Positions 15,011 through 21,059 of a stretch of 21,220 nucleotides of DNA are shown here, piece by piece; within the stretch, counting starts at the first letter, position 1; every line of letters starts with the position of its first letter. The translations under genes were made by a program, and so were the position numbers. The notes under the pieces are model-generated. The model did no database searches. It had not been told where the DNA came from and saw only the letters and a program-made list of their open reading frames with translations. This DNA comes from a virus. The DNA lies in the IMG/VR virus record IMGVR_UViG_3300021373_001941, positions 1 to 21,220 of that record, one strand, 5' to 3'.

Positions 15011-15715
15011 ATGACAAATTTTGCAAAAGCACCAACACTCTCAAACGAAACCATCAACACTGTTGAGAGCATCGAGGCTCAGGTAGTAAACCTGCGCGGC
15101 GATAAGAAGGCTTCAGACGAGGCCATCAATGCACACAAGGTCAACCAGTATGCTGAGTTGATTGCAGCCATCGCGGCTGATCGCAAGCCCAATGGCAAGT
15201 TCGAGCGGGGCTATGGCACCAAGCTGAAATCAGACCTGCATGAATTCGCAGGCATCCCTGAGGCCACTGCCAAGCGCCTTGGCGAGAACGCTGTCAATGC
15301 AGTCAAGTTGATCCACGACAAGATTGGCGACATCCCCACCCAGTACACCGCTGATGCGGCTAAGGGTGACCTCGAAAGCTTGGGTGCAACCAGCGAAAAC
15401 AAGCTGGTCAAAGCCATCAAAGAAAATCGTGGCGGGGCTGTCGATAAAGTCGAAAAGCTTGCTCGCAGCGTGGTTGGTTACTATGGCACCACAGTCAACA
15501 AGGACACGGGTGACACCAAGGTCAATAAGGCTTCATTCCTTAACGGCCTGTCTGATGAGGATCTCGAAACATTCGAGGCCCGCATCGCGGAGTTGATCGA
15601 GGTGCGCCGTGAGTTCGCCGCCGCATCTGAGGCAGCACAAGCGGCAGAGGAAGCCAAGAAGGCAGAGAACGAAGCGGTCAAAGCCGCTGAAGCTGCCTTG
15701 GCTAACGCAGCATGA
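15011..15715 (+). CDS. Ala-rich helical protein, unknown function
   Basis: A 234-aa protein from the ATG at 15011, which has GAAGGAAG upstream. A GTG at 14945 is in frame but lies inside the hairpin and has no binding site, so I reject it. The first 40 residues are helical. The middle (HEFAGIPEATAKRLGENAVNAVKLIHDKIGDIPTQYTADAAKGDLESLGATSENKLVKAIK) may be a compact helical domain with HhH-like turns. The end is an Ala/Glu/Lys coiled coil (EAAQAAEEAKKAENEAVKAAEAALANAA). It may be a nucleoid- or replication-linked protein; not known. It overlaps the next small gene by ATGA. Confidence 0.7.
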   Translation: MTNFAKAPTLSNETINTVESIEAQVVNLRGDKKASDEAINAHKVNQYAELIAAIAADRKPNGKFERGYGTKLKSDLHEFAGIPEATAKRLGENAVNAVKLIHDKIGDIPTQYTADAAKGDLESLGATSENKLVKAIKENRGGAVDKVEKLARSVVGYYGTTVNKDTGDTKVNKASFLNGLSDEDLETFEARIAELIEVRREFAAASEAAQAAEEAKKAENEAVKAAEAALANAA

Positions 15716-15901: not shown

Positions 15902-16423
15902 ATGTTGAACCAACGCGAAAAAATGATCGTGAAGTTAAACAATATGAAGGGCAGCGAATTCGCAGCCAGCCTGATCAAGCAATACAGCCGCAAGGGCACA
16001 CTGTCCGACAAGCAGTGGTGGTGGGTCGAGAAGCTCACCAATCCCGACAAGGATGCCACGCCCGTGAATGCTGGCCCCATCATTGACCTGTTGCAATACG
16101 CCAAGGTCAAGCGCCCTGTCTTCAGGGCAGAGGGCCTTCAGTTCTCTTTGGCACCAAGTCATGGGCGCAATGCTGGCGCGGTATATGTCAAGGCACAAGG
16201 CGAGTATCAGGGCAAGATCATGGGTGGCACATTCAAGCCAGCCCGCGACTGCTATGATGACACGGGTGCCAAGGTCGCAAAGATCGCCAAAGATCCGCGC
16301 GGTGCCGCCGTTCAGTATGGACGCGACACTGGGATCTGCGCCTGCTGTGGCAGGACACTGACCGATCCTAAAAGCATAGAGTTGGGCATAGGCCCAATCT
16401 GTGCAGACACTTGGGGGCTGTGA
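15902..16423 (+). CDS. DUF6011-like zinc-binding protein
   Basis: A 173-aa protein. The N-terminal 60 residues are helical (MLNQREKMIVKLNNMKGSEFAASLIKQYSRKGTLSDKQWWWVEKL). The middle is beta-rich (about 70-115). The C-terminus carries a four-cysteine cluster CACCGRTLTDPKSIELGIGPICA (about 147-169), the C..CGR.LT...S...GIGP.C signature I associate with DUF6011, probably a zinc ribbon. Such domains are frequent in phage and actinobacterial accessory genes, with nucleic-acid-linked roles suspected. AGAGGAGAG precedes the ATG. Its stop overlaps the next small gene (TGATG). Confidence 0.75.
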   Translation: MLNQREKMIVKLNNMKGSEFAASLIKQYSRKGTLSDKQWWWVEKLTNPDKDATPVNAGPIIDLLQYAKVKRPVFRAEGLQFSLAPSHGRNAGAVYVKAQGEYQGKIMGGTFKPARDCYDDTGAKVAKIAKDPRGAAVQYGRDTGICACCGRTLTDPKSIELGIGPICADTWGL

Positions 16424-16581
16424 TGGCCCCTTGGTTCGCCATCTGGATACAGTCGGGCACCAATGCCCGCATGTATGCAGAAGCAGATAGCCGCGAAGAG
16501 CTGGAGCTAAAGATCTGGGGTCAGGCTTATGCCCCAAAGAAAGCAACCATAAGCATTTATCAGAGAAGGAAAAGTTCATGA
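16423..16581 (+). CDS. 52-aa small soluble protein
   Basis: It starts at the ATG that shares one base with the previous stop (TGATG at 16421-16425) and ends on a TGA that overlaps the ATG of the ATPase gene (ATGA, 16578-16581). The product MAPWFAIWIQSGTNARMY... continues with a Glu-rich helix (EADSREELELKIWGQ) and a basic tail (YQRRKSS). The two-sided coupling makes it convincing. It may help or regulate the ATPase module downstream; that is inference. Confidence 0.65.
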   Translation: MAPWFAIWIQSGTNARMYAEADSREELELKIWGQAYAPKKATISIYQRRKSS

Positions 16582-16585
16582 GACT
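16573..16585. repeat. Boundary palindrome, degenerate copy enclosing the ATPase start codon
   Basis: AGTTC-ATGA-GACT resembles the perfect copies with one base lost in the right half. As at 673-686 (minus), it follows AAGGAAA directly and encloses the ATG; the 12-base AAGGAAAAGTTC is shared by both starts. Confidence 0.4.
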
Positions 16586-17645
16586 TTTGACTGCAAAAAA
16601 TATTTTGGTTCAGGCCATCGTAAACAACGTAAAGCTGGGCCAGAAGGGCGGGGCATATAACGCCCAGTTCGTGCCGCTCAAATTGGTGGGCGCTGTCGGC
16701 ACAGGCAAATCATCCATCGCCAGACAGGCGGCGGCAGAGGCCTTTGAAAGCATGGGTGTCAAGGAATATGCCTTCCACGTTGTGAACATTGCAGAGGAAG
16801 CGCCAGACGATATTGCTGGCAGCAATTATTACGACGAAAAGAACGGGCGCATGGTCAAGCTGAAGCCGTGGTGGTTTCCTGCCGACGATCAGCCCTATGG
16901 CGTTGTGTTCCTTGATGAATATGACCAAGGTGATAAGTCGCAGCAAAATGCTGGCGGCAACATCCTAGAGGAGCGCCGTTGTGGCCCTCACAAATTGCCC
17001 GCTGGCTGGGTCGTGATTGCTGCTGGCAACCGCAAGCAGGATCGTGCGGGCACCACCAACAACCCCGCTCAGGTCAAGGACAGAACCCTCAACTGTGAGG
17101 TTGAGGTCAACAAGGAAGACACCTTGGCCCACGCAAATCGGAACGGCTGGAACGATAAGATCAAAGGGTTCCTGCGTTTCGCTGGTGATGAGTGGCTGCA
17201 CAAATTTGATCCTGATGCTCAAAGCTTTCCAACCCCAAGGTCATGGGAAAAGACAAACACAGTCATGACATGGGATCTTGAGCCAGAGGAAATGCTGCAA
17301 GCGATTGCGTCCAAGATCGGCGCACCAGCCGCCGCTGCGTTCAATGGTTTCTGCAAGGTCTTTGATCTGGTGCCAGACATTGATGAGCTTATCGCAAAAC
17401 CTGATGAGGCTATGGTGCCAGACACCCCTGATGTTCTCTATGCGGTATGCGCTGCGCTGTCATCACGGGCAAACGCCGACAACCTTGCAGCCATTCTTAA
17501 ATACTGCAAGCGGTTCGAGCATCAAGAGTTCACAGCTATGATCATGCGAGATGTTCGCTCGCGTGTCGGGCCTATGGTTTTAAAGAAAGTGCCAGCCTTC
17601 AGAGAGTGGGTCATGGCAGGCGGCGGGAAGGAGTTGCTGGTATGA
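16578..17645 (+). CDS. MoxR/CobS-type AAA+ ATPase
   Basis: A 355-aa protein. Walker A GAVGTGKSS (38-46), Walker B VVFLDEYDQ (109-117), sensor 1 AAGNR (148-152), an arginine-finger candidate in KDRTLN (167-172) and sensor-2-like TPRSWE (219-224). A helical lid follows. This is the MoxR-type design; phage copies are often labelled CobS, the cobaltochelatase ATPase, but no CobN is seen here. MoxR ATPases work with VWA-domain partners to remodel or activate target proteins. A metallopeptidase-VWA protein lies two genes on, with a 61-aa protein between, all joined by ATGA overlaps. GC content looks higher than in the structural genes. Confidence 0.88.
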   Translation: MRLLTAKNILVQAIVNNVKLGQKGGAYNAQFVPLKLVGAVGTGKSSIARQAAAEAFESMGVKEYAFHVVNIAEEAPDDIAGSNYYDEKNGRMVKLKPWWFPADDQPYGVVFLDEYDQGDKSQQNAGGNILEERRCGPHKLPAGWVVIAAGNRKQDRAGTTNNPAQVKDRTLNCEVEVNKEDTLAHANRNGWNDKIKGFLRFAGDEWLHKFDPDAQSFPTPRSWEKTNTVMTWDLEPEEMLQAIASKIGAPAAAAFNGFCKVFDLVPDIDELIAKPDEAMVPDTPDVLYAVCAALSSRANADNLAAILKYCKRFEHQEFTAMIMRDVRSRVGPMVLKKVPAFREWVMAGGGKELLV

Positions 17646-17827
17646 GTGAACGCGAAAAGAACTTAGCCAACTACCTGCATAAGGTAGTTGGTTGGATCGA
17701 GAATGATATAATTGATGGGGATTGTGATCCCCATGATTTTTGTCGTGATCTTAAAGATAGTATTGAATTGCAGCTTGGGGTCTGGGCTATCCCAACTGAA
17801 TTTATCCTGAAAGGGGATGTAGAATGA
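17642..17827 (+). CDS. 61-aa linker-gene protein between ATPase and VWA protein
   Basis: It starts at the ATG overlapping the ATPase stop (ATGA at 17642-17645) and ends overlapping the start of the VWA gene (ATGA at 17824-17827). The longer upstream GTG frame would overlap the ATPase and is rejected. The product is acidic and helical (MSEREKNLANYLHKVVGWIENDIIDGDCDPHDFCRDLKDSIELQLGVWAIPTEFILKGDVE), compatible with a small adaptor. Its base composition is more AT-rich than that of its two neighbours. No family recognised. Confidence 0.7.
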   Translation: MSEREKNLANYLHKVVGWIENDIIDGDCDPHDFCRDLKDSIELQLGVWAIPTEFILKGDVE

Positions 17828-18951
17828 TGGAACCAAACCTAATCGTATCGCGGGCTGTTACACAGCTTGCATTCAATCATCCATTCTTTGGTTCAATTGC
17901 ACTTTCCACAGGCATGTCCAAAGACGAAACAATCGACACCATGTGTACCGATGGGTCGCGGATCTGGTGGTCACCAGACTTTGTGGCGGGGCAGTCCCCC
18001 GCCAAGGTCGAGGGCACCATTGCCCATGAGACCATGCACATTGTCTTGTGCCATCACCTACGGCGCGGCAATCGTGACCCGTTTCTTTGGAACTGCTCTT
18101 GTGATTATGTAGCGAACCTAATCTGCAAGGACGCAGGGCTTGAGCTTCCTGAGGGTGTATTGATTGATGAGCAATACAGGGGCATGACTGCGGAGCAGGT
18201 CTATGATCGCCTGCCTAAGAACTTTCAGGTGCCTGATGATACCGTGATGCTGGGCGAGGTGAAGGACGCCAAGAACAAGAACGGCGAGGCACCCTCTGAG
18301 GCAGAGATCAAGCAGATGACTGCGGATGTTCAGGCAAAGTCCATGATGGCTGCGGAGAGTGCCCGCATGCGTGGCAAGCTTCCCGCGTCCTTGAGTGCCG
18401 TGATCGACGAGATGAAGAAGGCAGACATAGATCTGCATGCTGTCATGTCGCGGTTTATGAGTGGTCAAAACCCAGACTACTACTCGACAGCCAGACCTAA
18501 TCGTAAGAAGATCAGGTCGCTCAAGATTGTTGCGCCCACTGTTATCAAGACTGGTTGCGGCAACGTGGTCTTCAGCATGGACACATCTGGATCTGTCTTG
18601 GACAACGAGATCAAGTATTTCCTTGGTGTTGCGAACGAGCTTGTTGATGAGATGCGTCCGACATCTGTGACTGTCATCACATGGGATAGCAAGGTTCGCA
18701 CAGTCAAACGATACGAAGAGGGCGAAGAGATCCAGTCCTTTGAGATTGGTGGGCGAGGCGGCACCAGCGTGTCGCCAATGTTCAGCTACATTGAGGACAT
18801 GGATATCGAGTGTGATCAGATGATCTGCCTCAGTGACATGGGCATCCATGACTATCCTGATGATCCAGACTACCCAGTTCTCTGGGTATCTTCATGGTCG
18901 AGCGGGCGTCCTGCGCCCTTTGGCGAGACCACTTATCTTAACTGTCCATAA
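17824..18951 (+). CDS. Metallopeptidase-like protein with C-terminal VWA domain
   Basis: A 375-aa protein of DUF2201-like type. The N-terminal part has a zinc-peptidase motif HETMH (H68, E69, H72) with a possible third ligand in NCSCDYVAN (D94). A helical linker (about 145-230) follows. The C-terminal VWA domain has a full MIDAS: DTSGS (253-257), T314 in GGTS and D338 in LSDMG. The pair with a MoxR ATPase resembles bacterial MoxR-VWA chaperone modules and some counter-invader systems. It might cut or remodel a host target, dependent on ATPase and metal. A second ATG at 17827 is possible. Confidence 0.85.
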   Translation: MMEPNLIVSRAVTQLAFNHPFFGSIALSTGMSKDETIDTMCTDGSRIWWSPDFVAGQSPAKVEGTIAHETMHIVLCHHLRRGNRDPFLWNCSCDYVANLICKDAGLELPEGVLIDEQYRGMTAEQVYDRLPKNFQVPDDTVMLGEVKDAKNKNGEAPSEAEIKQMTADVQAKSMMAAESARMRGKLPASLSAVIDEMKKADIDLHAVMSRFMSGQNPDYYSTARPNRKKIRSLKIVAPTVIKTGCGNVVFSMDTSGSVLDNEIKYFLGVANELVDEMRPTSVTVITWDSKVRTVKRYEEGEEIQSFEIGGRGGTSVSPMFSYIEDMDIECDQMICLSDMGIHDYPDDPDYPVLWVSSWSSGRPAPFGETTYLNCP

Positions 18952-20660: not shown

Positions 20661-20760
20661 CTCAAGTGCACTCCTCATGACGTTCAGACACTGCCTGTAT
20701 GAACGCGCACTTGTAAACTGGCGGGGCTATGCCCCGTCTTTTTTTTGGAGAATGATATGA
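20641..20760 (+). CDS. Possible 39-codon ORF spanning the intergenic terminator
   Basis: An ATG at 20641 opens 39 codons (MRTPYTNSSALLMTFRHCLYERALVNWRGYAPSFFWRMI) and stops on a TGA that overlaps the ATG of the next gene (ATGA at 20757-20760). The overlap style fits this genome, but there is no ribosome binding site and the frame reads through a terminator. It may be chance. Confidence 0.3.
   Translation: MRTPYTNSSALLMTFRHCLYERALVNWRGYAPSFFWRMI
20722..20746 (+). terminator. Intrinsic terminator
   Basis: CGGGGC-TAT-GCCCCG stem-loop (extended by a G-T pair) followed by C and eight T residues. This should end the long plus-strand accessory transcript, so the following Fis-like gene would rely on read-through or its own promoter. 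Confidence 0.85.
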
Positions 20761-21059
20761 ACATAGAGTTGGAAAACCTAAGCATCGCTGTTGAAGATGG
20801 CAAGCTCATCATCACCCCAACAAAGACTGAAAAAACTTTGCGTGGTTTCAGGGATGATATGAATGTGCATCTCGCTATAGAGGATCTGATTGATGATTAC
20901 ATTGAGAAGGCCTTGGACATCGTGGGAAGAGGGCACGGCTCTCAAACAAAAGCAGCTAAGTTGCTTGGCTTTGATAGCTATCAGGCCTTCAGCTACTGGC
21001 TAAAAAGAAGAGAGAAAAAAAAGACTATAGATTACGTCAAGAGATTTGAACGGATTTAA
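20757..21059 (+). CDS. Fis-like helix-turn-helix protein
   Basis: About 100 aa from the ATG at 20757, which has TTGGAG 6 bases upstream. A TTG at 20745 is in frame but lies in the terminator T-run and is rejected. The C-terminal part IEKALDIVGRGHGSQTKAAKLLGFDSYQAFSYWLKRR (about 55-91) fits the HTH_8 domain of Fis and NtrC proteins (A......G...KAA..LG.......WL). The N-terminus is beta-prone (LSIAVEDGKLIITPT). A likely DNA-binding regulator or nucleoid-like protein; it is a candidate binder of the repeated palindromes, which is speculation. Confidence 0.75.
   Translation: MNIELENLSIAVEDGKLIITPTKTEKTLRGFRDDMNVHLAIEDLIDDYIEKALDIVGRGHGSQTKAAKLLGFDSYQAFSYWLKRREKKKTIDYVKRFERI

Follow-up and report, generated by a model that had tools for sequence, protein, structure and literature searches.

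A MoxR-like ATPase and a putative zinc metallopeptidase-VWA protein of the N4 gp24/gp25 kind in a marine phage

Introduction

The Escherichia phage N4 proteins gp24, an AAA+ ATPase, and gp25, a vWFA protein, are encoded by core genes of the N4-like phages compared (PMC4193335 Table 3), and in another N4-like core gene list (PMC7650795 Table 2) one of the three methods used retrieved gp25. A pair consisting of MoxR and a metallopeptidase-vWA protein was published for jumbo phages in 2021 (Iyer et al. 2021, PMC7824862), where MoxR was described as a chaperone and the second protein, whose metallopeptidase domain is N-terminal, as its co-chaperone. The NorQD machine depends on its ATPase ring, on ATP hydrolysis and on an intact metal ion-dependent adhesion site (MIDAS) in the VWA domain, which is plugged into the pore (PMC9976466). 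Here we analyzed a MoxR-like ATPase and its putative zinc metallopeptidase-VWA partner encoded in the IMG/VR virus record IMGVR_UViG_3300021373_001941. The stretch of DNA analyzed, referred to as the window, is this source record in full (21,220 bases), with no sequence beyond it.

Since the N4 core genes and the jumbo-phage pair have been published (PMC4193335, PMC7824862), the window pair is of an already known kind, and its sequence identifies it as a phage member of the catalogued and widespread gp24/gp25 pair. On balance, we think that the two proteins probably act as a soluble ATP-driven protein remodeller or protease inside the infected cell, ahead of assembly or separately from it, on one or more non-virion proteins, a view that we hold with restraint.

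Results

Genes for the terminase small and large subunits, the portal and the major head protein identify the record as that of a phage, and the virus is a marine one. All of these genes are on the strand opposite to the pair, which is encoded as follows.

16578..17645, + strand: MoxR-like AAA+ ATPase, 355 amino acids, N4 gp24 family, phrog_1297; Walker A at 38-45, Walker B at 109-114, sensor 1 N151
17824..18951, + strand: putative zinc metallopeptidase-VWA protein, 375 amino acids, N4 gp25 family, phrog_1314; DUF2201_N (HETMH at 68-72, D94 as probable third ligand) and DUF2201 (full MIDAS)

The ATPase matched phrog_1297 over residues 28-346 (E 5.6e-68), and the Pfam scan returned AAA together with a weaker match to AAA_5. 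The Walker A (GAVGTGKS), Walker B (VVFLDE) and sensor 1 (AAGN) motifs, R169 and R221 were invariant or nearly so in an alignment of divergent phages, which bears out the intact Walker and sensor residues reported in the initial annotation. The nearest solved protein by sequence was Midasin (E 2e-32). In the predicted monomer model (predicted local distance difference test score, pLDDT, 89; predicted template modelling score, pTM, 0.79), the strands of a helix-2 insert were seen at 82-86 and 91-95 and a presensor hairpin before 143-151, as read from secondary structure only. The insert and the hairpins are typical of MoxR proteins, and the modelled ATPase appears MoxR-like; it probably forms a ring. 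The model was aligned with CbbQ2 (Z 13.4, 228 residues, 3.6 Å) and NorQ (Z 13.3, 217 residues, 3.6 Å). Since dynein and other helix-2-insert ATPases scored as high, MoxR cannot be told from them by its fold.

The partner matched phrog_1314 over residues 8-372 (E 6.5e-91) and contains two Pfam domains, PF13203 (DUF2201_N; E 4e-35, 122 bits against a gathering threshold of 23.2) and PF09967 (DUF2201, VWA-like; E 1e-18, 67.9 bits against 26.4). The zinc motif HETMH and a complete MIDAS (DTSGS at 253-257, T314 and D338) were both present, as had been stated earlier, and H68, E69, H72, D94, D253, S255, S257, T314 and D338 were invariant in 14 of 14 divergent sequences. These sequences were chosen by tblastn and not selected on the motif, and 12 of them came from separate phage records. 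HExxH was also found in 80 of 80 IMG/VR loci, a figure that is biased because the scan pattern itself contained the motif. In the predicted, metal-free model of the partner (pLDDT 86, pTM 0.59), HExxH lies in helix 59-74 and D94, the probable third zinc ligand, in helix 86-103, a placement that appears zincin-like. Residues 242-375 were aligned with VWA domains at Z values of about 12-13.5. The structure search was run with the whole partner, and VWA domains filled the match list, so that the zinc half was barely probed; by sequence only, the nearest solved matches of this half were MJ1213 (E 5e-4) and an M48 peptidase (E 0.014).

The phrog_1314 database label, HNH endonuclease, was rejected for the partner, as no HNH domain was found in its Pfam scan. 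In G7C the pair is interrupted by an HNH gene, and in Vibrio K479 by an HNH-labelled one; these genes are the likely source of the label, which looks like a misannotation of the zincin-VWA family spread through many phage records.

An AAA+ ATPase next to a VWA partner bears a general likeness to the CobS/CobT-like small subunits of cobalt or magnesium chelatases. We consider a chelatase very improbable. The partner domains are DUF2201_N and DUF2201, and no CobN/ChlH match was found in 12 phage records carrying the pair, namely the window's 21-kb record, which is a partial view of the genome, and 11 related phage records; five control genomes were positive. These results agree with the initial annotation in its reading of a MoxR-VWA pair with a peptidase-like domain rather than cobalt chelation. 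That the peptidase-like domain was an addition made in a phage does not hold, as the domain is part of the normal family architecture published for jumbo phages (PMC7824862) and N4 gp24/gp25 (PMC4193335).

Relatives of the partner were found by tblastn in 570 phage records and relatives of the ATPase in 711. The carriers include N4-like phages, jumbo phages, Bacillus phage G, Thermus phage phiFa, cyanophage S-TIM61 and rv5-like phages. The ATPase gene was detected at 73 IMG/VR loci, in every one of them upstream of the partner gene and co-directional with it, and the remaining 7 of the 80 loci have at most 1.3 kb of sequence upstream of the peptidase gene. At cellular genome loci, the ATPase was upstream and co-directional in 72 of 80. 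The gap between the two genes ranged from -4 bases to 2 kb, and the intervening genes vary by lineage: an HNH endonuclease in G7C, an open reading frame (ORF) of 43 amino acids in DSS3phi2, several genes in CRP-7, an ORF of 61 amino acids in the window and none in S-TIM61. In PVP-SE1, the two genes are separated and divergent. The tree distances of the ATPase and the partner were correlated (r 0.80 over 133 loci; permutation maximum 0.09), as expected of partner proteins, and shared ancestry contributes to this correlation. N4 gp24/gp25 and their orthologues, which belong to the Schitoviridae core, resemble the window in the order from ATPase to zincin-VWA, in the domains and in co-direction, with about 20-30% identity to the window proteins in the relatives aligned. 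Compared with the 94%-identical relative L002, the two long ORFs showed ratios of nonsynonymous to synonymous substitution rates (dN/dS) of 0.12 and 0.14, and because of this purifying selection they are taken as real genes. The pair is missing from the terminase relatives HTVC023P, HTVC027P, 023Pt_psg01, DSL-LC04 and CRP-902. In another phage clade (L092:3910-4641), a family of 240-amino-acid proteins is encoded between the ATPase and the partner, and again downstream in many loci, with a weak match to phrog_1965.

Partner relatives were also present in 68 plasmid records. All three plasmid loci read had the ATPase upstream of the partner; two were typed conjugative, and one lies beside type IV secretion system and PRTRC genes. 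The pair is common in bacterial genomes, where one copy adjoins TraM of a conjugative transposon and ParB, and another adjoins ParB. Since the neighbours of other genomic copies are mixed, with integrases and primases but also metabolic genes, mobility cannot be assumed for every copy. The plasmid, conjugative-transposon and chromosomal operons share the ATPase and the zincin-VWA protein with the window at up to 34-36% identity. Unlike the window, most plasmid and cellular operons hold a third gene of about 300 amino acids, which accompanies the MoxR/DUF2201 pair at 57 plasmid or cellular loci (L021:9068-9928, L022:9052-9981, L023:7087-7986 and 54 genome loci) and at 1 of 80 viral loci. The third protein had no Pfam match above the cut-off. 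This distribution suggests that plasmids and chromosomes encode a three-protein system which was mostly lost from phages or was never present in them. The sole viral locus with the plasmid-type third gene, L067 (IMGVR_UViG_3300021425_000117), has it between the pair and may represent a phage-plasmid or an element that was classified wrongly.

The other genes of the region are listed below.

15011..15715, + strand: 234-amino-acid protein, matched in neither Pfam nor PHROG; a homologue precedes the ATPase in 40 of 80 IMG/VR loci
15902..16423, + strand: DUF6011 protein with a C-x2-C zinc-ribbon-like motif; co-directional neighbour, kept upstream in 18 of 80 IMG/VR loci
16423..16581, + strand: 52-amino-acid protein without assigned function; loosely associated neighbour, TGATG overlap with the DUF6011 gene
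17642..17827, + strand: 61-amino-acid lineage-specific ORF between the pair; AT-rich, no counterpart in L002 or L003, no homologue

All four ORFs that had been placed at 16423-18951 with start-stop overlaps were found there. The ATPase, 61-amino-acid and HExxH-VWA genes each form an ATGA overlap with the preceding stop, and the start of the 52-amino-acid gene overlaps the DUF6011 stop by TGATG. Short ATGA overlaps are frequent in phages and by themselves point only to likely translational coupling.

The initial annotation had proposed the two tiny genes as partners in one device, and the comparison of loci did not sustain this proposal: as a fixed partner the 61-amino-acid gene was rejected and the 52-amino-acid gene is a weak candidate. 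Both 94%-identical relatives, L002 and L003 (IMGVR_UViG_3300028844_002415 and 3300022074_001701), are without the 61-amino-acid gene, with a clean difference of 182 bp. Their ATPase end, GCTAGTATGATGGAACC, runs directly into the partner with an ATGA junction, and the 182 additional bases of the window are the 61-amino-acid gene, with the ATGA overlap restored at both sides. Searches of IMG/VR, of 50,697 phage records and of 187 loci found no homologue of its protein. Its GC content is 41% (37% at third codon positions, GC3), compared with 52-53% in the flanking genes. What speaks for a real gene is an open frame and a ribosome-binding site, in a single copy. From these comparisons, the gene is best read as a recent insertion that would lie outside the machine; with three sequences compared, loss in the relatives may instead account for the difference. 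Of 80 IMG/VR loci, 8 (L028-L033, L036 and L076) have a homologue of the 52-amino-acid gene directly upstream of the ATPase; the gene is retained in the two close relatives, and more distant copies lie upstream of the ATPase in six other loci. Roseobacter phage CRP-902 has the gene as well, without the pair. The 52-amino-acid gene is at most an optional neighbour and no fixed partner.

The 234-amino-acid protein carries a conserved EAT(x)KRYxENSVGA motif and belongs to no known family. It is a clade-wide neighbour, and its presence in 40 of 80 loci may mirror descent rather than function, because the carrier phages are related. The possibility that it is the phage form of the plasmid protein of about 300 amino acids was rejected, as the two profiles are unrelated (hhalign probability 0.5%). 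The 240-amino-acid proteins of the other phage clade were likewise related to neither. The small protein at 20745-21059 has a Fis-like helix-turn-helix (GHGSQTKAAKLLGFDSYQAFSYWLKRR) and a weak match to the transcriptional repressor family phrog_35. Across IMG/VR, the neighbours of the pair are unrelated, clade-specific proteins. In the Pfam scan of the pair and its neighbours, we found no third signature protein or domain of the VMAP, iSTAND, FtsH or beta-propeller MoxR-vWA conflict systems (PMC7159879).

Discussion

In the machine that we favour, the MoxR ATPase subunits would form a ring onto which the zincin-VWA partner would dock, and the VWA MIDAS would grip an acidic patch on the target protein. 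ATP hydrolysis by the ring would then remodel the target, and the zinc domain would clip the exposed segment. With NorQD as a template, such a scheme of ring and adaptor, in which the zinc domain cuts what the ring exposes, is likely by analogy. The machine would be soluble and would work inside the infected cell; in the window phage, its targets would be host proteins or phage proteins outside the virion, and its action would come ahead of particle assembly or be separate from it.

NorQ/NorD, CbbQ/CbbO and RavA/ViaA share with the window a MoxR ring ATPase and a MIDAS-bearing VWA partner. Unlike in the window, we know of no HExxH domain fused to the VWA in these systems. The NorQD-type systems further differ in a much larger VWA partner, in the pore-entering finger of NorD and in their known protein targets.

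N4 gp24 and gp25 are middle genes (PMC4193335). Their homologues were not among the 13 virion proteins identified by mass spectrometry in RPP1/RLP1 (PMC4193335), and they were not marked as detected in KP8 virions (PMC6950046). Because of the plasmid relatives, the absence from virion lists and the middle expression in N4, action in the cell is favoured over a purely virion role. The pair could also be an assembly or maturation factor that remodels and cleaves structural proteins of the virion, which we regard as possible but unlikely. A comparison with Acidianus two-tailed virus, which has a tail chaperone of the MoxR-VWA kind, underlies the published proposal of virion assembly in jumbo phages (PMC7824862). 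Some N4-like roseophages have a second structural module near the gp24/gp25 homologues (PMC4193335), and the pair of cyanophage S-TIM61 comes after Hsp20 and has annotated virion proteins nearby. However, relatives of the same architecture are found on elements that make no virion, namely conjugative plasmids and a conjugative transposon; expression in N4 is middle and not late, the proteins are not in the reported virion lists, and the structural genes of the window are on the opposite strand. The jumbo-phage pair has the domain architecture of the window pair and was assigned to virion assembly in very large phages (PMC7824862), whereas the window phage is smaller, and its plasmid kin argue for a wider role. 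No published knock-down of N4 gp24 or gp25 was found in the literature searched.

Several observations weigh against an in-cell remodeller or protease of this design. Gel-based virion lists can miss rare proteins and are uninformative on transient assembly factors. The VWA part of the partner is short, with about 130 residues, and since its predicted secondary structure has no evident counterpart of the long finger proposed to enter the ring pore in NorD, docking may differ from that of NorD. Nine cellular partners have Thr, Leu or Asp in place of the catalytic Glu and keep H68, H72 and D94, so peptidase action is not essential across the family; these relatives may be natural non-proteolytic versions. 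They are at L135, L143, L152, L159, L165, L167, L173, L175 and L185, in Desulfobacterota and others. These variants are consistent with a remodeller that does not cut, in which the zinc domain would be no more than a scaffold that binds metal, and the pair would, like NorQD, act as a chaperone or insert a cofactor. Most MoxR-VWA pairs whose function is known resemble chaperones (PMC9976466). The HExxH motif was kept, however, in all 14 members of the alignment that was not selected on it, and we think such a machine rather unlikely for the window pair.

The copies on conjugative plasmids and a conjugative transposon and the absence from virion lists make host takeover or anti-defence a little more likely. 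An anti-defence or competitor-exclusion machine would dismantle or cleave an immune protein of the host or a protein of a rival element. It would fit a function that is common to phages and conjugative elements yet dispensable in the lineage, as in the five terminase relatives without the pair. However, the pair is core in all N4-like phages compared (PMC4193335), and most anti-defence genes are patchy. A defence system was rejected, since there was no PADLOC match, and the same null result stands against an anti-defence role, although the PADLOC library covers defence and not anti-defence. We regard this specific role as doubtful. A broader and speculative possibility, to which we give little weight, is that phages, conjugative plasmids and integrated elements share an AAA+ powered, zinc-dependent proteolytic machine that meets a common need of incoming DNA elements, with a host factor disarmed or remodelled by it. 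An accessory protein particular to each lineage would then be added between or beside the pair, of about 300 amino acids on plasmids, 240 in one phage clade and 61 in the window.

This uncharacterised pair is one of those common in large tailed phages, and it is core in every N4-like phage compared. The copies on conjugative plasmids, the third gene found there and the cellular variants of the catalytic Glu offer direct routes to separate virion assembly from action on host proteins, and the plasmid link and the third gene are leads that may be useful.

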